The position numbers were made by a program, and so were the translations under genes. Below, piece by piece: positions 29,666-37,287 of a stretch of 64,000 bases of DNA. The notes beneath the pieces were generated by a model. It saw nothing but the letters and a program-made list of their open reading frames with translations, had not been told where the DNA came from and ran no database searches. The DNA is taken from positions 930,001 through 994,000 of the forward strand of contig JABTUS010000001.1 in the NCBI GenBank assembly GCA_015075305.1, given 5' to 3'. Numbering within the stretch: position 1 is the first letter of the stretch; every line of letters starts with the position of its first letter. Source of the stretch: Opitutaceae bacterium. GTDB lineage: Bacteria > Verrucomicrobiota > Verrucomicrobiia > Opitutales > Opitutaceae.

Positions 29666-30709
29666 TCAGGCAAACTGACGCAGGAAACGCAGGTCGTTCT
29701 GATAGAAATATCGGATGTCATCGATGCCGTAGAGTAGCATCGCCAGGCGTTCGAGTCCCATGCCAAACGCATACCCCGTCCAGATCGAAGAATCGTAGCC
29801 GACTCCGTCGAACACGACGGGATCGACCATGCCGCAACCGCCGATTTCGATCCAGTCCTTGTTCACCTTCGGCAGGTGCCTGGCGCTCAGATCAACTTCA
29901 AAGCTCGGTTCGGTGTATCCGAAATAGTGCGGCCGAAAGCGCGTCTTGGTGTCCTTGCCGAGAAGCGATGTGAAGATGTAGTCCAGCAGCGCCTTGAGGT
30001 CCCTCACCGTGACGTTGCGATCGACGTAGAGGCACTCGAGCTGATGGAAGTTCGCGGAGTGCGTCGCATCCGTGGCATCGCGCCGATAGACCCGCCCGGG
30101 GGATACAATGCGGATGGGCGGAGGGCCCTTCAGCATCGTGCGGATCTGCACGGATGACGTATGGGTGCGCAGCAGATACTTCTCGTCGGGAGTCCGTTTC
30201 GCGATGTTTCCGAAACGCGCCCCCGTCGGAAGGTAGAACGTATCCTGGGCATCGCGTGCAGGGTGATCCGCAGGAGTGTTCAGCGCGTCGAAGCACATGT
30301 ATTCTGTTTCCACCTCCGGTCCATCGGCAACTGAGAATCCCACTTTCCTCAGTATGCGGCACATTTCCTCACGCACAAGGGTGAGCGGGTGATATGTGCC
30401 GGGCCCTGCATCAGGCGATGGAAGCGTGGGATCGATCGTCGGGCCAAGCTGCGAGGTGATTTCCGCCTCGCCGATTCTCGCAAGCGCGGCGTCGAGCTCC
30501 AGCTGGAGTTTCGCTTTCGCTTCATTGATGAGTTTTCCCATGGCAGGACGCTGCTCCTTGGGAACACCACCCATCTGTTTCATCAGGGCGGTCAGCTCAC
30601 CGTTTGGTCCGACCAGCCGCGCCTTGGCCGCCTCGAATTCGGGGCGGGACTTGAGCGCATTCAAATCGGCGTGAGCCTTGGAAATAAGTGCGGTGAGAGT
30701 CTGTTCCAT
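29666..30709 (-). CDS. pheS: Phenylalanyl-tRNA synthetase alpha subunit
   Basis: A 347-residue PheS. The N-terminal coiled coil precedes class II motifs: GTYHPLTLVREEMCRILRKV, ETEYMCFDALNTPADHPARD, LLRTHTSSVQIRTM (motif 2 region), and motif 3 GLERLAMLLYGIDDIRYFY. It catalyses phenylalanine activation. The gene sits between the rplT terminator-like hairpin and pheT. No attenuator leader peptide or T-box is visible upstream. Confidence 0.95.
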   Translation of the reverse strand: MEQTLTALISKAHADLNALKSRPEFEAAKARLVGPNGELTALMKQMGGVPKEQRPAMGKLINEAKAKLQLELDAALARIGEAEITSQLGPTIDPTLPSPDAGPGTYHPLTLVREEMCRILRKVGFSVADGPEVETEYMCFDALNTPADHPARDAQDTFYLPTGARFGNIAKRTPDEKYLLRTHTSSVQIRTMLKGPPPIRIVSPGRVYRRDATDATHSANFHQLECLYVDRNVTVRDLKALLDYIFTSLLGKDTKTRFRPHYFGYTEPSFEVDLSARHLPKVNKDWIEIGGCGMVDPVVFDGVGYDSSIWTGYAFGMGLERLAMLLYGIDDIRYFYQNDLRFLRQFA

Positions 30710-30750
30710 GGGAAATGGCGCGCAAAAATGGGTTCAACCAATGGCAAAGT

Positions 30751-30792
30751 GAAAATAAAAAGGACGGTACTCCAGGGAGGAGGCCCGTCCTT
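30751..30792 (-). terminator. Rho-independent terminator-like hairpin between rplT and pheS
   Basis: On the minus strand AAGGACGG (30792-30785) pairs with CCGTCCTT (30767-30760) around a 17-base loop and is followed by TTTATTTTC. It lies 72 bases after the rplT stop and 42 bases before pheS, so it could end the rpmI-rplT transcript or attenuate pheS. The large loop lowers certainty. Confidence 0.7.
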
Positions 30793-30864
30793 CAAGGGCA
30801 GGCACCTGGGCGATCAGGCGCCGCCGCGGGGGGCGAGCCGGTCCGGCTCGCGTTGAGCATAACC

Positions 30865-31251
30865 TCAGGCCTTCGCCTTCGCGGCAGAAGCCTTGTTCTT
30901 CAACGCGTCCTTGGCCTGATTGACCAGCACGTTGAACGCCGCTTCATCCCGAATTGCAATGTCGGACAGGACCTTGCGATCGAGATCGATTCTGGCGGCC
31001 TTGAGCCCCTCTATGAAGCGGCTGTAGCTGATGCCTGCATTGCGGCAGGCTGCATTGAGGCGCACGATCCAGAGACCGCGCATCTCGGACTTCTTCTTTT
31101 TCCGGTCACGGTAGGCATACTGCCAGGCATGCTGGACAGCCTCCTTGGCGTAGCGGAAGAGCTTCGATTTGCTGGCGAAGTAGCCCTTGGCGTACTTCAG
31201 TACTTTCTTGCGACGACGGCGGGAAGCCGGGGCGTTTGTTGAACGAGCCAT
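30865..31251 (-). CDS. rplT: 50S ribosomal protein L20
   Basis: A 128-residue basic protein with the L20 signatures RRRRKKVLKYAKGYFASKSK, YRDRKKKKSEMRGLWIVRLN and YSRFIEGLKAARIDLDRKVL. A short Ala/Lys tail extends beyond the family core. It is required early in 50S assembly and in several bacteria represses its own operon. It follows rpmI by 84 bases. infC, often upstream of rpmI, is not found here. Confidence 0.95.
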   Translation of the reverse strand: MARSTNAPASRRRRKKVLKYAKGYFASKSKLFRYAKEAVQHAWQYAYRDRKKKKSEMRGLWIVRLNAACRNAGISYSRFIEGLKAARIDLDRKVLSDIAIRDEAAFNVLVNQAKDALKNKASAAKAKA

Positions 31252-31335
31252 GTTGGTATTTCCTTTTGGTTTTGTCGCCGGAAGGTCGGCTGAGGATCAC
31301 CTTCCAAGCGTGGTTGTATTTTTCGGCGTGCTGTG

Positions 31336-31530
31336 TCAGAGGCCGAAGGGGAGACAGCGCTTGAGGGGCGCTTCCCTGCCTGGATCGACGAGCTTGTCCT
31401 TGGTTGCACGACGCTTTGACTTCGTGCTTTTCGCAGACAGCAAATGCCGGAAGCCGGGCGTGCGGCGAATCAGTTTGCCCTTGCCGGACATCTTGAAGCG
31501 CTTGGCTACGGACTTTTTGGTCTTTTGCAT
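31336..31530 (-). CDS. rpmI: 50S ribosomal protein L35
   Basis: A 64-residue protein starting at ATG 31530 (MQKTKKSVAKRFKMSGKGKL), with the typical RTPGFRHLLSAKSTKSKRR. The longer frame up to 31617 adds a non-family hydrophobic stretch and lies in what looks like a structured leader. It pairs with rplT as usual. Upstream, instead of infC and thrS, there is a divergent tRNA cluster. Confidence 0.93.
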   Translation of the reverse strand: MQKTKKSVAKRFKMSGKGKLIRRTPGFRHLLSAKSTKSKRRATKDKLVDPGREAPLKRCLPFGL

Positions 31531-31566
31531 GGAAAAATGTAGAAAGCAGACGTTGAGCACGACCTT

Positions 31567-31626
31567 GGCAAGGGCAAAATGCCTCCAAAAAAGCCTCAAA
31601 CCAGGCATCCACACCATCGCCTTGCC
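31567..31626 (-). promoter_or_regulatory. Candidate structured leader of rpmI-rplT
   Basis: On the minus strand GGCAAGG (31626-31620) can pair with CCTTGCC (31573-31567), enclosing ATGCCT paired with AGGCAT. Within the same interval GCCT-GGTTTG-AGGC followed directly by six T forms a small terminator-like hairpin that would compete with the ATGCCT/AGGCAT pairing. The element ends 37 bases before the L35 start. Autoregulation by L20 is known in other bacteria with different structures; here it is an inference. Confidence 0.4.
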
Positions 31627-31690: not shown

Positions 31691-31765
<75 letters not shown>

Positions 31766-31860
31766 ATGCCAGGTTTTCCCTCTCGGGTTGACCGCTGCCG
31801 GATTCCTTTTTTCATATCTTTTCACCGTCCGCTCTCAATCAACTTGGTTCTTTCTCACGC

Positions 31861-31935
31861 GCCGGCGTAGCTCAATGGCAGAGCACCTGTTTTGTAAACA
31901 GGTGGTTGCAGGTTCAACTCCCGTCGCCGGCTCCA
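31861..31935 (+). tRNA. tRNA-Thr (anticodon TGT)
   Basis: Acceptor GCCGGCG pairs with CGCCGGC, followed by T and an encoded CCA. Anticodon stem CCTGT/ACAGG encloses TTTGTAA, giving anticodon TGT for ACA. It lies 95 bases after tRNA-Lys, with no gene in between. Confidence 0.96.
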
Positions 31936-31993
31936 TCTTCTCCGTTCAAATCTTGTTTTCCTTTTCCCTCATGGAATAATTTCGATCTTCCAC

Positions 31994-32067
31994 TGCCTGG
32001 TGGTGTAATGGTAGCACAACAGATTCTGACTCTGTTTGTCTAGGTTCGATCCCTAGCCGGGCAGCCA
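31994..32067 (+). tRNA. tRNA-Gln (anticodon CTG)
   Basis: Acceptor TGCCTGG pairs with CCGGGCA including one G-T pair; the discriminator is G, and CCA is encoded. Anticodon stem ACAGA/TCTGT encloses TTCTGAC, giving CTG for CAG. GatCAB in the window may serve tRNA-Gln charging by transamidation; whether GlnRS also exists cannot be seen here. Confidence 0.95.
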
Positions 32068-32371: not shown

Positions 32372-33034
32372 ATGACCGCATTCAATCTGCCTCTCGCGTT
32401 CCTCATGGGCCATACTCCGATGGAGCTCTTCAAGGGAGGAGGCCCCATCATGTGGCCGATCATCATCCTGTCGTTCCTGACAATCACCGTGATTATCGAG
32501 CGTGCAATCTTCTCCCTCAAGGAGACTCTTTCCCGCGAGCCTGAAGTCATCGAAAAGATGCTGGAGAAAGCAAAGTCACAGGATTTCGACGGCGCGATTG
32601 CACTCGGCAAGAAGAGCAGGGACTTCATCGCACGCATGCTTGTCTACGCGTTCAACCATCGGGAACAGTCCATCCATAACGCCTTTGCACGCGCAGCCAG
32701 CAAGGAGTTCGCCCGCTACCATCAGGGAATGCCCACGCTCGACACCTGCATCACCGCCGCCCCGCTGCTCGGCCTCCTGGGAACAATCACAGGCATGATG
32801 AACACCTTCGGAGCGCTTGGCACGGCTGGCGGCGATATCGCAGCAGCAGCCGGTCAAATCACCGGCGGTGTCGGTGAAGCGCTGATTGCGACAGCCATGG
32901 GTCTCGTCATCGCGATCATTGGCCTTTTCCCATTCAACTTCTTGAATGCCAAGACTGCTGAGGCCCGTACGGAAGTGGATGATGTCGCCAACTCATTGGA
33001 CTCGATCGTCTCAAAGGTCGACGCTCGCGCTTGA
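32372..33034 (+). CDS. exbB: ExbB/TolQ/MotA-type proton channel protein
   Basis: A 220-residue protein with three membrane helices: about residues 26-46 (MWPIIILSFLTITVIIERAI), 130-150 (ITAAPLLGLLGTITGMMNTF) and 170-190 (GEALIATAMGLVIAIIGLFP). The conserved helix 2-3 pattern with small residues and the Thr in LLGTITGM matches ExbB/TolQ. It forms the stator channel with ExbD and powers TonB by proton flow. It is the first of seven plus-strand genes ending at a terminator at 37253. Confidence 0.92.
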   Translation: MTAFNLPLAFLMGHTPMELFKGGGPIMWPIIILSFLTITVIIERAIFSLKETLSREPEVIEKMLEKAKSQDFDGAIALGKKSRDFIARMLVYAFNHREQSIHNAFARAASKEFARYHQGMPTLDTCITAAPLLGLLGTITGMMNTFGALGTAGGDIAAAAGQITGGVGEALIATAMGLVIAIIGLFPFNFLNAKTAEARTEVDDVANSLDSIVSKVDARA

Positions 33035-33075
33035 TTCGGCCAAAGGCGCTCTAACCCCCATAATATTTTTCATCC

Positions 33076-33504
33076 ATGGCAGGCGGATCCTCAGGAGGAG
33101 GTGGCGGAGCCAAGAAAGCGCGGATTGAGATCATCCCTCTCATTGACGTGATTTTCTTCCTGCTCGCAACTTTCGTTCTCTTCACGCTTTCGCTCAACAA
33201 GTCGCAGGGATTGCCCGTTGTCCTCCCAAAGGTCGAAACGAGCATTCCACGGGATCCCGCGGGATCCGTTACCATAACGGTAACCGCCGAAGGCACGCTC
33301 GCTTGGGACAAGGATCCGATCACCTTGGACGACTTTCTGATTCGCCTTGAAAAATACAAGGCAGCGGCTGGTCCCGATGCCCGTGTTCTGATCAATGGTC
33401 ATGAAGACGCATTCTTCGCGCAGGCTCGCTACGTTTTTGACGAAGTACGCAAGAAGGGGATCCAGAAAGTGTTCATTGAGACACGTGTGCGTCCCCCACA
33501 GTGA
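33076..33504 (+). CDS. exbD: ExbD/TolR family protein, first copy
   Basis: A 142-residue protein: short Gly-rich cytoplasmic N-terminus, one helix with the proton-carrying Asp in IEIIPLIDVIFFLLATFVLF, then a periplasmic domain ending DEVRKKGIQKVFIETRV. It partners ExbB. A second, closely similar copy follows 52 bases later; the two share ARIEIIPLIDVIFFLLATFV almost exactly but differ in the periplasmic part. Confidence 0.93.
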   Translation: MAGGSSGGGGGAKKARIEIIPLIDVIFFLLATFVLFTLSLNKSQGLPVVLPKVETSIPRDPAGSVTITVTAEGTLAWDKDPITLDDFLIRLEKYKAAAGPDARVLINGHEDAFFAQARYVFDEVRKKGIQKVFIETRVRPPQ

Positions 33505-33556
33505 TTTCTGCTAAGAAATCCTGCAATCTCCCGTCACCATTCGAATAGATCCACCC

Positions 33557-33985
33557 ATGGCAGGCACATCTTCAAACAGCAGTGGAAAGAAACAAGCACG
33601 CATCGAGATCATTCCACTAATCGATGTCATTTTCTTCCTACTGGCAACGTTCGTGCTCTTCACACTGTCACTCAACAAGATCCAGTCGCTGGATATCGTA
33701 CTACCCCAAGCGTCGAATGCCGAGAAAAATGAGGACAACGAAAGTGTAACGATTCAGGTTTCTGATGCTGGAACGGTATACTGGAATCGGGAATTGATCA
33801 CCGCTTCCGAAGTGGAACCAAGGCTGCAAAATTATGCAGCGCAGCATCCGACGGATGCAAGAGTCCTGGTCACCTCTGACGACCGGGCAAAATATGGCGC
33901 GACCGTTCAGGTCCTTGACGAAGTGCGCAAGGCGGGGATCACCAAAGTATCCATCGAAACCGTCTGGCGTGGTACAGGAAAGTAA
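33557..33985 (+). CDS. exbD: ExbD/TolR family protein, second copy
   Basis: A 142-residue paralogue of the preceding gene, with the same length, the same Asp-bearing helix (IEIIPLIDVIFFLLATFVLF) and a diverged periplasmic domain (IVLPQASNAEKNEDNESVTI, ending VLDEVRKAGITKVSIETV). ExbD works as a dimer in the ExbB ring, so two genes allow a heterodimer, with asymmetric contacts to TonB or other stalks. TonB starts 12 bases later. Confidence 0.93.
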   Translation: MAGTSSNSSGKKQARIEIIPLIDVIFFLLATFVLFTLSLNKIQSLDIVLPQASNAEKNEDNESVTIQVSDAGTVYWNRELITASEVEPRLQNYAAQHPTDARVLVTSDDRAKYGATVQVLDEVRKAGITKVSIETVWRGTGK

Positions 33986-33997
33986 TCAACCCCGCAC

Positions 33998-34669
33998 ATG
34001 AATCGCGATCTAATCATCGGACTTGCTGTTTCAGCCGCCCTTCACGGCGGGGTATTCTTCGGCGAGACGCTATTCCACAAGAAATCTCAGCATGCCCCCA
34101 AAAAACAGGAGGAAGCTGTGATCGAACTGATGGAGATGCCTCCACCCCCTCCCGAAGAAGAACCTGAGCTTCAGGATCCAACCGAAGACACCCCACCCGA
34201 AGCGGCGGAACTCGCACCGCCGATGGCCGTTGACCTGCCATCCGCTGTTACCATCGACTCATTTGTTCAGAAGCTTCAACCGCCCCCTCCTCCAGGTTTG
34301 GATCGTCCCAAGGGCAATATCACAATCCCGACTGGCCGCCCGAGTGTTGGCAGCATTGGACACGGAATGAAGGATCTGTTTGATTTGGCCAATCTTGATC
34401 AGGCTCCTCAGGCGCGAATTCAGGCTAAACCCAATTACCCGTTTGAAATGCGCCGTGCGGGCATCACCGGAGACGTATTGGTTGGGTTCATTGTGAATTC
34501 CAGTGGCGACGTCGTTGAAGCGACGGCGCTAAAATCCTCCCAGCGGGAATTCGAAGCCGCGGCAGTTCAGGCTGTCTCGAAATGGAAGTTCAAGCCCGGA
34601 CGCAAGGGAGGCAAGGCGGTCAATACCCGAATGCAGGTCCCAATCGTATTCAGCATCACCGACGAATGA
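33998..34669 (+). CDS. tonB: TonB-family energy transducer
   Basis: A 223-residue protein. The N-terminal helix (about residues 5-25) carries the SxxxH-type motif SAALHGG used to contact ExbB/ExbD. A periplasmic Pro/Glu-rich region (MPPPPPEEEPELQDP and LQPPPPPG) spans the envelope, and the C-terminal TonB domain runs from about residue 140 (YPFEMRRAGITGDVLVGFIV, ASKWKFKPGR-like SKWKFKPGRKGGK). Its stop overlaps the start of the TPR gene (ATGA at 34666-34669). Confidence 0.92.
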   Translation: MNRDLIIGLAVSAALHGGVFFGETLFHKKSQHAPKKQEEAVIELMEMPPPPPEEEPELQDPTEDTPPEAAELAPPMAVDLPSAVTIDSFVQKLQPPPPPGLDRPKGNITIPTGRPSVGSIGHGMKDLFDLANLDQAPQARIQAKPNYPFEMRRAGITGDVLVGFIVNSSGDVVEATALKSSQREFEAAAVQAVSKWKFKPGRKGGKAVNTRMQVPIVFSITDE

Positions 34670-36102
34670 GACTTTACCGTATCATGCCGCTTTTTTCGCC
34701 ATCTCTCCGCACCCCTCTGCGAGTAGGTTCCCTTCTGCTTGCCTTGGGGCTGGCCGAGCCCTTCGTAAGTCATGCCCAGGATCGTCAGAATGCTCCGAAG
34801 AAGGAGTTGAGTGACAAAGTTTCTGAAGAACTGGGCAAGATCCGCACCCAGACTGATGCCAAGAACTACGACGGTGCCTTGGCCATCATTGATGGCCTTA
34901 TCAAGATTTCAGGTCCCGAAAGCTACGATCTGGCACTGCTGTCCCAGGTAAAGGCGCAGATTCTGTTAACAAAGGGGGATTACGCAAAATCAATTCCTCC
35001 CTTGGAAACCGCCGTCTCCATTTCCGACAAGTACGGATTCTTCGACGATCGGCAGACCCAGGAACTTACCTACTACCTGTCACAGCTCTACTACCAAGAG
35101 GCGGTAACCAGCAAGGTTCCGGCGGATCAACGGCGGTATTACGGCAAGGCAGTTTCGTACATGGACCAATGGGCCAAGCGGAATACCAAGCCAAATCCCG
35201 ATGTTCAGCTCTATTACGCCACGCTGCTATTCTATCAATCCCAGCTGGATTCGAACAACCCGGATCGCAAGTTGCTCAAGCGCGCACAGGAAGAGGTGGA
35301 GAAGGGCCTGCAGATGTCTGTCCATCCCAAGGACACCTTTTACCTACTGCTATTCGCAACGCTTCAACAGCAGGAGAAGATCAAGGAATCAATCGATATC
35401 CTTGAGCTCTATCTGAAGCTGAAACCAGATGCGAAGACATACTGGCCCCAGCTTGCGTCCCTCTATCTTAATCAACAGAAGGATATTCGCGTTATCGCTA
35501 CAATCGAACGGGCTCAGAAACTTGGGGTAATGACAAGCCCCAAGGACAACTTCACCCTGGTCGGACTCTATTTTAACATCGGGCAGTTCGATTATGCCAT
35601 AGACCTTCTCAGCAAGGGTCTTAGGGATGGCTCAATCGAGAACGAACAGCGGAATTGGGAACTACTCGCTGCGGCCTACATGCAGCTCCACAAGGAGCTG
35701 AAAGCGATCGAAGTGCTGAAGGAAGCTTCAAAGCTCTATCCCGAATCCGGCGCACTCCTTGCGCAAATCGCACAAACCTATTATCAACTCGAAAGAATTC
35801 AGGACGCCTATACCTATGCCAAGCAAGCGGTCTCCAAAAAGTTGGAGAAGCCGTGGACAACGCAACTTTTTCTCGCCTATGTTTCGTATGAGCTGAAGAA
35901 GTACGACGACGCGCTTGCAGCGGTGAACACGGCGGCTTCCTACCCGCAAGGGGTCAAGGATGCTGAACGCCTGAAGAAGGGTATCGAAGACGCAATCGCC
36001 GAGGCAGCCGCACTTCGTGAGCAGATAGCCGCTGAAACCGGAAAGAAGGCGCCAAAATCGGACGCTACGAAGACTCCGACAAACCAGCCCACCAAGAAGT
36101 AA
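34666..36102 (+). CDS. Exported TPR-repeat protein of the ExbBD-TonB operon
   Basis: A 478-residue protein with a signal peptide (LRVGSLLLALGLAEPFVSHA, likely cleaved before QDRQ) followed by tandem TPR-like helical repeats through about residue 430, and an Ala/Lys/Thr-rich C-terminal tail. ATG 34666 overlaps the tonB stop, which supports a shared function. In Tol systems a periplasmic TPR protein (CpoB/YbgF) accompanies TolQRA; this gene is in the comparable place but is larger. Ligand unknown. Confidence 0.82.
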   Translation: MRLYRIMPLFSPSLRTPLRVGSLLLALGLAEPFVSHAQDRQNAPKKELSDKVSEELGKIRTQTDAKNYDGALAIIDGLIKISGPESYDLALLSQVKAQILLTKGDYAKSIPPLETAVSISDKYGFFDDRQTQELTYYLSQLYYQEAVTSKVPADQRRYYGKAVSYMDQWAKRNTKPNPDVQLYYATLLFYQSQLDSNNPDRKLLKRAQEEVEKGLQMSVHPKDTFYLLLFATLQQQEKIKESIDILELYLKLKPDAKTYWPQLASLYLNQQKDIRVIATIERAQKLGVMTSPKDNFTLVGLYFNIGQFDYAIDLLSKGLRDGSIENEQRNWELLAAAYMQLHKELKAIEVLKEASKLYPESGALLAQIAQTYYQLERIQDAYTYAKQAVSKKLEKPWTTQLFLAYVSYELKKYDDALAAVNTAASYPQGVKDAERLKKGIEDAIAEAAALREQIAAETGKKAPKSDATKTPTNQPTKK

Positions 36103-36123
36103 CCATTTCCATCATCGAACTTC

Positions 36124-36675
36124 ATGAACAAAGCTTACATCATCTTCCCCCTGATCATGCTCCTGATCTTCGGAGGATTCTATTGGAATTTCGCCAAAGA
36201 CTACCAAATCAAACAGGACGCGAAGGTTGCCGCCCAAAAGAAGGCCGTTGAAGACAAGAAGAAAGCGGAGCTGGATGCCCGAAAGCAGGCGATAGAAGAC
36301 GCCACCCGCATGGCCGAGCAACGCATTCGCGAAAAGAAGGAAAAGGAGGAAAAGGATCAGCGGGAAAAAGAGGCTCGCGCTGCAGCGATCGAAGCTCGCG
36401 AAAAGGCCGCCCGCGATCAGGAAAAACTGAGCAGACAGGTGGTTCGCCTCACAAAGGATATCGAAGAGGAAAAAACCGCCATTGCGCAGGTGGAGGAAAT
36501 CAAAGCGAAGAGTGTCGATGAGGTGGCGTTCCTGAAAACAGCAGTCAAAGAATCGGAGGCCAACGTTAAGGGCCTCGAAACTGTCCTCACCAAGATCAAG
36601 GCTGCTGATGACGCCAGGGCAGCTGCCGAGGCGCTTGCCGCCGCTGCCGCTGCCGCTGCAAAGAGCAAGAACTAA
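36124..36675 (+). CDS. Single-helix coiled-coil protein, TolA-stalk-like, copy 1
   Basis: A 183-residue protein: a membrane helix at residues 5-22 (YIIFPLIMLLIFGGFYWNF), then a long Lys/Glu/Ala-rich coiled coil (residues 28-165) and an Ala-rich tail ending KSKN. The composition resembles TolA domain II, but there is no TolA C-terminal domain. The next gene is a paralogue. The orientation in the membrane is uncertain because lysines flank both sides of the helix. Spacing of 21 bases after the TPR gene implies one operon with ExbB/ExbD/TonB. Confidence 0.75.
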   Translation: MNKAYIIFPLIMLLIFGGFYWNFAKDYQIKQDAKVAAQKKAVEDKKKAELDARKQAIEDATRMAEQRIREKKEKEEKDQREKEARAAAIEAREKAARDQEKLSRQVVRLTKDIEEEKTAIAQVEEIKAKSVDEVAFLKTAVKESEANVKGLETVLTKIKAADDARAAAEALAAAAAAAAKSKN

Positions 36676-36693
36676 CCCCCACCCCTCGAAGCA

Positions 36694-37236
36694 ATGAACA
36701 AGATCTATTTAATCGTTCCCATCGTGCTTTGCGCACTCTTCGGTGTCTATTATTACAAGTTCATCCAGGATGAGGCGGTGAAGACAGAGCAGCGCGAGAA
36801 AGCCGCCAAGATCGCCAAGGATGAAGCGGATGCGAAAAAGAAGGAAATCGAGGACAAGGCGCGAAAGGATGCGGACGATCGTCAACAGAAGCGTTTGGCA
36901 GACGAAAAGAAGAAGGATGATGATCGTCGCGCAAAGTGGGAAAGCCAGAGCAGAGAAATCGCCGAGGCGACTGCCAAATACAGTGCCGAGGCCGCCAAGT
37001 ACACCAAGCAGATCGCCGATCTTGACGCTCAGCTTAAGGAAACCCGACTCAAGAAGGACACTGCCACACGTGAATCCTTTGACCTGAAGAAGCAGGTGGA
37101 GCTTGCCCTCATCGCCAAACGCAATGCCGAACTCGAGATTCAACGCATGGTTAGCATGGTCGCAAACAAGGCGGCCGAAAGCGCGATGGCGCGCCCGCCT
37201 CCCCCTCCGCCCGTAGAGAAGGGCAAATCCAAGTAA
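36694..37236 (+). CDS. Single-helix coiled-coil protein, TolA-stalk-like, copy 2
   Basis: A 180-residue paralogue of the preceding gene: the N-termini align as MNKxYxIxP followed by a helix ending in FGVYYYKF. The Lys/Asp/Ala-rich coiled coil extends to about residue 150, and the C-terminus is proline-rich (ARPPPPPPVEKGKSK), unlike the Ala-rich tail of copy 1. The different tails suggest separate partners. It is the last gene before a strong terminator. No known family name comes to mind. Confidence 0.75.
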   Translation: MNKIYLIVPIVLCALFGVYYYKFIQDEAVKTEQREKAAKIAKDEADAKKKEIEDKARKDADDRQQKRLADEKKKDDDRRAKWESQSREIAEATAKYSAEAAKYTKQIADLDAQLKETRLKKDTATRESFDLKKQVELALIAKRNAELEIQRMVSMVANKAAESAMARPPPPPPVEKGKSK

Positions 37237-37252
37237 CCTTCGCCATTTCATG

Positions 37253-37287
37253 AAGGCGGCCCCAACTCAACGGGCCGCCTTTTTTCT
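37253..37287 (+). terminator. Strong rho-independent terminator of the exbB operon
   Basis: AAGGCGGCCC (37253-37262) pairs perfectly with GGGCCGCCTT (37272-37281), with a 9-base loop, and the T-tract TTTTTTTCTT follows. It begins 16 bases after the last coiled-coil gene. Confidence 0.94.

Follow-up and report, generated by a model that had tools for sequence, protein, structure and literature searches.

The Ton system of Escherichia coli couples an ExbB-ExbD motor to a TonB with an S-x3-H motif and a TonB_C domain, and it has a single ExbD, no tetratricopeptide repeat (TPR) protein, and no rods. Operons encoding one channel protein together with two ExbD/TolR proteins are found in Xanthomonas (exbD1/exbD2) and Myxococcus (AglRQS); their roles differ from that of the locus described here, and we know of no comparable rods in them. 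Larger Ton systems are present in Vibrio, where excerpts of PMC6957404 give the gene order ttpB-ttpC-exbB-exbD-tonB-ttpD for TonB2 and TonB3. According to the same excerpts, ttpB2 (DUF3450, leucine zipper) is the first and ttpD2 (TPR) the last gene of the Vibrio vulnificus tonB2 operon, and both TtpB2 and TtpD2 are needed for TonB2 iron uptake. The locus compared here to these systems lies in a window of 64,000 nucleotides, which is the whole stretch of DNA analysed, from an Opitutaceae bacterium (GCA_015075305.1, contig JABTUS010000001.1, positions 930,001 to 994,000). It comprises genes for ExbB, two ExbD proteins (ExbD1 and ExbD2), TonB, a TPR protein, and two paralogous proteins with one long predicted helix each, CC1 and CC2, which we call rods.

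The cassette thus shares the motor and a TonB with S-x3-H motif and TonB_C domain with E. coli, and one channel protein with two ExbD proteins with the paired operons. Its likeness to Vibrio TonB2 and TonB3, as far as the excerpts of PMC6957404 describe them, lies in the TPR gene directly following ExbB, ExbD, and TonB and in the subunits beyond the three-part Ton system, which are needed there. The cassette differs in having two ExbDs and two rods, predicted to be membrane-anchored single helices, which are encoded after the motor genes. The motor, TonB, and the TPR protein are of known kind, and the two rods do not match any Pfam or NCBIfam family above its cut-off. A first-pass annotation of the window had considered the composition to be without precedent. 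This holds for the two rods but not for exbB-exbD-tonB-TPR, which is the Vibrio TonB2/TtpD arrangement as given in the excerpts of PMC6957404. Searches of the open-licence PMC literature turned up no paper recognised as a description of the seven-gene unit. We propose, with modest confidence, that the locus encodes an extended Ton system in which a matched pair of rods stands where TtpB and TtpC stand elsewhere, and would serve TonB and the TPR protein as a scaffold or peripheral stalk. The composition and order of the cassette, the length constraint on the rods, the TonB motif, and the kinship of the TPR protein are established at the level of sequence.

Conservation and distribution of the seven-gene unit

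The seven-gene cassette is a real, operon-like unit. Open reading frames (ORFs), Pfam searches, and folding agree with the first-pass description of seven plus-strand genes closed by a strong terminator, including a TPR gene coupled to tonB and two single-helix paralogues. The cassette is more than a chance arrangement because all seven genes are found again, identically ordered, in many genomes. Two partly overlapping sets of relatives were compared, one of 57 genomes (that of the window included) and one of 50 loci with a relative of the TPR protein. CC1 is present in 32 and the TPR protein in 36 of the 57 genomes, counting the window's own genome (G000). The stretches from these genomes contain 34 CC-bearing loci, not counting the window, and 31 of them have the order ExbB-ExbD-ExbD-TonB-TPR-CC-CC; the remaining three (L070, L077, L101) run into contig ends. 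One cassette (L096, genome G011) carries a third CC gene. In the second set, all seven genes are found in order at 40/50 loci, a count that includes three loci whose ExbB is partly truncated where the contig begins (L137, L139, L148) and one whose CC1 is split over two ORFs (L134). Seven further loci (L114, L120, L127, L130, L152, L156, L157) are truncated by a contig end and agree as far as the sequence reaches, and one (L155, Synoicihabitans) appears decayed, its ORFs being shortened or split throughout the cassette. L155 belongs to a metagenome-assembled genome (MAG) of Synoicihabitans palmerolidicus, and its broken ORFs represent either true decay or sequencing errors. If L155 and two loci discussed below (L160, L161) are excluded, the remaining 47 loci provide 36 cassettes with all seven genes in full length. 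All 36 are colinear, with median gaps of 6-48.5 nucleotides. The coiled-coil genes are therefore tied to exbBDD-tonB-TPR, as the first-pass annotation had expected, and the possibility that CC1 and CC2 are random coiled-coil ORFs was rejected, given that they recur as an adjacent, ordered pair.

The 50 loci are mostly labelled as Opitutaceae, as Opitutia/Opitutae, as genera of the Opitutaceae, or by phylum only, and the cassette is also present in a locus labelled Puniceicoccales (L157). In a class sample of 384 genomes the CC2 profile matched 39, 34 of them strongly (best E 1e-38 or better). Strong matches were obtained in 33 of the 38 genomes of the window's family (the window's included) versus a single one (G055) of the 346 others. 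One of the five weak matches belongs to the family (G418, 3.9e-8) and four to other genomes (1.8e-6 to 2.8e-4). The CC1 profile gave an agreeing result in a phylum sample (34/387 genomes, one of these weak). In all 30 loci returned by the class survey, the TPR protein and CC1 are encoded upstream of CC2. Some genomes contain several whole cassettes, four in G014 and two in G013. For one of the four in G014 (L085, G014:C1:7152000-7166000), a candidate dedicated receptor, seen as a TonB-dependent plug domain, is encoded about 2.6 kb downstream.

The Ton motor and the two rods

The cassette has the features of a Ton system, namely an ExbB-family channel, the membrane aspartate of ExbD, and a TonB with S-x3-H and C-terminal domain. 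Both ExbD1 and ExbD2 of the window read IEIIPLIDVIFFLLATFVLFTLSLNK, with the membrane aspartate. P-x-I-D is kept in 42/42 ExbD1 relatives and in 46/47 ExbD2 relatives, where the one exception is an ORF truncated at the 5' end. S-x3-H is present in 44 of the 49 TonB relatives, and the five misses are three proteins with Ala for Ser and two fragments of L155. The genome of the window encodes at least 67 TonB-dependent plug domains, which is a lower bound because 67 of 99 candidates were scored. The same genome has a second TonB (L106:1072-1743, C1 ~600.9-601.6 kb). Its N-terminal sequence, MNRDLIIGLSVSAALHGG, is almost the same as in the TonB of the cassette. Since the closest match to ExbD is about 26 kb away, this second TonB may share the motor of the cassette. 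Two more ExbD genes are located side by side at G000:C1:1018064-1018896, where a TonB_C match is absent nearby.

CC1 and CC2 are paralogous (hhalign 1.3e-20). AlphaFold2 predicts CC1 to be a single unbroken helix from residue 4 to 182, with a mean predicted local distance difference test score (pLDDT) of 91.6, and CC2 to be a single helix from residue 4 to 164 (mean pLDDT 90.2) followed by a tail without structure. A helix rises by 1.5 angstrom per residue, and the predicted helices would thus reach roughly 24 nm (CC1) and 21 nm (CC2) beyond about residue 24, which is close to the usually quoted width of the periplasm. In the 36 complete cassettes, each rod contains an indel-free run of 163 residues at a mean identity of 43%. 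In the TPR protein (44% identity), 71 core columns are gapped and the longest gap-free run is 96, and the longest runs of the other proteins are 137 (ExbB, 66% identity), 85 (TonB), 45 (ExbD2), and 36 (ExbD1). Rod length is far more conserved than rod sequence. In genome G024 (L097) each of the two rods carries an insertion of one residue; this is one event at different places (after residue 101 in CC1 and after residue 25 in CC2, by eye) and was not used as evidence.

Motifs were counted in proteins of at least 160 residues (45 CC1, 45 CC2, and 46 TonB). The membrane motif Y/F/H-x3-P-x6-F is found in 45/45 CC1 and 41/45 CC2 but in none of the 46 TonBs. All rods have lysine or arginine at residues 2-4 (45/45 of both CC1 and CC2). 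Because these residues immediately precede the membrane helix, an N-in, C-out topology is predicted by the positive-inside rule, and the rods would, judged by charge and predicted helix, consist of an N-in single membrane helix and a periplasmic stalk. The tails are Ala-rich in 43/45 CC1 and Pro-rich in 37/45 CC2; in the window the Ala-rich tail ends CC1, and PPPPPP is found near the end of CC2. It has also to be considered that CC1 and CC2 might face the cytoplasm as assembly or regulatory partners of ExbB, given their highly charged sequence and that neither a cleavable signal peptide nor a lipobox was seen by eye. The basic residues in front of the membrane helix in every rod argue for the opposite orientation, and TonB acts in the periplasm, as would the TPR protein to judge from its N-terminus. 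A cytoplasmic location is therefore very improbable.

The first-pass annotation had regarded the locus as a Tol hybrid with a motor-driven, TolA-like stalk. TolA and TonB bind their motors via a membrane SHLS motif, and the lengths of domain II of TolA and TonB vary greatly, with deletions in TolA being tolerated (excerpts of PMC12204202). By the same excerpts, the TolQRA-TolB-Pal-CpoB system is similar to the cassette in its related motor, in the stalk of TolA, which can be helical, and in the TPRs of CpoB. Differences are that TolB_N and TolA family matches are missing with the cassette, and that the rods are without conserved His and locked in length. If CC1 and CC2 were force-transducing stalks on the ExbBD motor of TonB, and the locus a Ton/Tol hybrid supporting the outer membrane, the Lys/Glu/Ala-rich helix behind their single membrane helix would correspond to a helical TolA domain II. 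In addition, the window's genome yielded no TolB_N match, which would leave room for a Tol substitute, although a divergent TolB could escape such a search. However, the motor-binding membrane His at residues 11-23, present in 46/46 cassette TonBs, is found in 0/45 CC1 and 4/45 CC2, unlike the SHLS motif of TolA and TonB as reported in PMC12204202 (excerpts). In a looser range (residues 4-30) His occurs in 9/45 CC1 and 19/45 CC2, where it sits mainly at the helix's outer end. A globular end domain is absent from both rods in Pfam and AlphaFold2; the TolA C-terminal domain gave no Pfam match above cut-off on CC1 or CC2, and CC1 is predicted to be helical to its end. Their length is locked, while domain II of TolA and TonB is variable (PMC12204202, in the excerpts). 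TolB_N is just over cut-off in 3/57 genomes, and since its absence is general in the order, with or without cassette, it does not track CC1 and CC2. A role as TolA-like stalks is thus quite unlikely and the hybrid of the first-pass annotation could not be upheld. Membership in Tol-Pal was rejected too, because G000 has no TolB_N match and CC1 and CC2 have no TolA family match. Another motor-related arrangement is known from the PVC group, in which a TPR protein adjoins a TolQ-like protein and a pair of TolR-like proteins, together with vWA transducers (excerpts of PMC12204202). The cassette lacks a vWA protein, has a TonB, and differs in gene order from that system as excerpted in PMC12204202. 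A role of CC1 and CC2 as vWA transducers was rejected, because none of the seven proteins has a vWA match in Pfam.

The near-constant length and the periplasm-scale helices would also suit coiled-coil tethers in the periplasm, whose main action would be on the cell wall or envelope spacing and which would be co-transcribed with the Ton genes while standing outside the Ton complex. The tails, in which a recognisable transporter-binding domain is absent, would fit such tethers as well. Against such tethers, the CC matches seen outside cassettes are all weak (E 4e-8 to 9e-4), and where copies are multiple (G014, G013) it is whole cassettes that are multiplied. We regard tethers outside the Ton complex as unlikely.

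Kinship with Ttp-type systems and the proposed machine

The Ttp comparison was made with Ttp-type operons of the Opitutales and not with Vibrio sequences. By this comparison, a TtpD-like TPR gene directly follows tonB in the cassette. The cassette TPR profile aligns to three TPRs in TtpD position at 3.1e-42 over 370 columns (hhalign) and to the TPR protein of G023 at 1.9e-7 over 185 columns, the latter control being a single sequence and not a matched alignment, which weakens the comparison. Six of the seven non-cassette TPR matches in the 57 genomes are within TtpC-containing Ton operons, and the seventh, that of G023, is outside. The order TtpB-TtpC-ExbB-ExbD(-ExbD)-TonB-TPR is found in G021 and G027 of the window's family, and further TtpC-containing Ton operons in G016, G018, G020, G039, G040, G043, G055, G253, and G418. 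Among these, the TPR is unmatched in G016 and G055, TonB is unmatched in G253, and in G043 no TonB match directly precedes the TPR. The TtpC-like proteins of L103 and L104 have, by reading, a long Glu/Arg/Ala-rich stretch ahead of the channel domain. A search for TtpB (DUF3450) in the genome of the window gave no match. Within the cassette, to which the search for ExbB was confined, a long TtpC is absent and the sole ExbB has 220 residues. DUF3450 was over cut-off in 3/30 and 5/22 cassette-bearing family genomes (together 8/52) and in 4/7 and 4/4 family genomes without cassette (together 8/11). TtpB is rarer with than without the cassette. Two of the cassette-less genomes are incomplete (G019, 67%; G008, 89%), and G055, which belongs to another family, has both the cassette and DUF3450.

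In the proposed machine, ExbB together with the ExbD1/ExbD2 pair would drive TonB for TonB-dependent uptake at the outer membrane. CC1 and CC2 would stand beside the motor as paired, periplasm-crossing rods similar to a peripheral stalk, with their common Y-x3-P-x6-F membrane motif as the anchor, at a site distinct from that of TonB. Their far ends, the Ala tail and the Pro tail, might hold the TPR protein and/or a partner in the cell wall or outer membrane, so that TonB would be delivered to its transporters at fixed spacing. The rods would stand in for TtpB and the N-terminal TtpC arm of Vibrio-type TonB2 systems and would not be force transducers themselves. It is this scaffold role of CC1 and CC2 that we infer. 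A more specific version, that the two rods are a heterodimer of fixed reach which serves the motor as ruler or peripheral stalk, sets the inter-membrane distance at which TonB meets its transporters, and evolved in the Opitutaceae in replacement of Vibrio-type TtpB/TtpC, is tentative and rather doubtful. Subunits b and b' of ATP synthase pair in its peripheral stalk, and they resemble the rods in having a membrane anchor and one long helix. That stalk belongs to another complex, is on another side of the membrane, and has other partners, and is only an analogy. Among solved structures the CC1 profile gave weak matches to the b subunit of ATP synthase (E 9.4e-4) and, at 4.8e-3, to a short coiled coil; both are likely compositional and were not accepted as relatives.

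Several observations weigh against the extended Ton system with scaffolding rods. Charged proteins rich in Lys, Glu, and Ala are easily drawn as one helix, and the AlphaFold2 models are monomers. If the most divergent cassettes are included, the strict indel-free run shrinks to 97 residues in CC1 (36 rows) and 76 in CC2 (35 rows); an indel within the rod is nevertheless confined to a single row of CC1 and two rows of CC2. Significant heptad-like periodicity is limited to about residues 91-174 of CC1 and 49-118 of CC2. Because these stretches overlap little, a simple in-register pair of CC1 and CC2 is disfavoured. Distance correlations among the TPR protein, CC1, and CC2 are high (0.89-0.90), yet all pairs of the cassette are correlated (0.69-0.86), and shared history alone would give such values. 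The lower frequency of TtpB with the cassette (pooled Fisher p 3.6e-4) comes from a test that ignores shared ancestry, and eight family genomes carry both the cassette and TtpB. G418, a family genome without cassette, has a match to the CC2 profile (G418:C61:42490-42807, 3.9e-8, residues 6-109), and L160 and L161, both from Puniceicoccales MAGs, have a TPR relative without ExbB, ExbD, or TonB upstream. As to the latter two, the TPR relative sits at a contig end and the genes upstream are unrelated. G418 itself has, as a side observation, a Ttp-type operon.

The locus touches the questions of how TonB finds its path across the periplasm and why some Ton systems need extra TPR or coiled-coil subunits. 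In a family whose members often have many TonB-dependent transporters, two rods are retained in strict linkage to the motor, and TtpD-type TPR proteins are tied to a Ton subtype that is found mostly where TtpB is missing. The locked length of the rods provides a testable handle on whether a Ton machine needs a scaffold of fixed length.

Layout and surroundings of the locus

Features of the cassette (positions in the window)
Feature	Position	Strand	Evidence
ExbB/TolQ-family proton channel, 220 residues	32372..33034	+	Pfam MotA_ExbB PF01618, 4.4e-26
ExbD1, 142 residues, membrane Asp within PLID	33076..33504	+	Pfam ExbD PF02472, 4.7e-21
ExbD2, 142 residues, membrane helix like that of ExbD1, other periplasmic part	33557..33985	+	PF02472, 6.2e-29
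TonB, 223 residues, motor-binding motif SAALH and TonB_C	33998..34669	+	PF03544, 5.7e-20
TPR protein, 478 residues, signal-peptide-like N-terminus, TtpD-like	34666..36102	+	several Pfam TPR models
CC1, 183 residues, predicted N-in membrane anchor and one long helix, Ala-rich tail	36124..36675	+	AlphaFold2, family alignment
CC2, 180 residues, paralogue of CC1, long helix, then Pro-rich tail	36694..37236	+	AlphaFold2, hhalign
Intrinsic terminator, 11-bp stem, 9-nucleotide loop, T run	37252..37287	+	-21.4 kcal/mol, z -5.18

The intergenic gaps are, in order, 41, 52, 12, -4, 21, and 18 bases. The negative value reflects the ATG of the TPR gene, which overlaps the stop codon of tonB by 4 bases (ATGA); the ORF as called mechanically opens at 34582, ahead of this likely start at 34666. 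The TPR protein is probably secreted, as read from its N-terminus. The folded terminator comprises a hairpin at 37252-37282 and the T run, and was left unlisted by a simple terminator scan, whose loop limit is 8 nucleotides. A search for internal promoters gave three promoter-like sites on both strands versus 3.0 expected, which is no signal. An eighth conserved gene was not found among flanking ORFs of at least 110 residues clustered at E 1e-10. The top cluster (19/45 loci) looks like shadow ORFs and the next (18/45) like pheS, as named by reading. With a pheS-like gene near the cassette in so many loci, the position of the cassette looks old. In the window, three tRNA genes are located upstream of the cassette at 31691-32067, and pheS, rplT, and rpmI, again named by reading, are found just upstream at 29666-31617.

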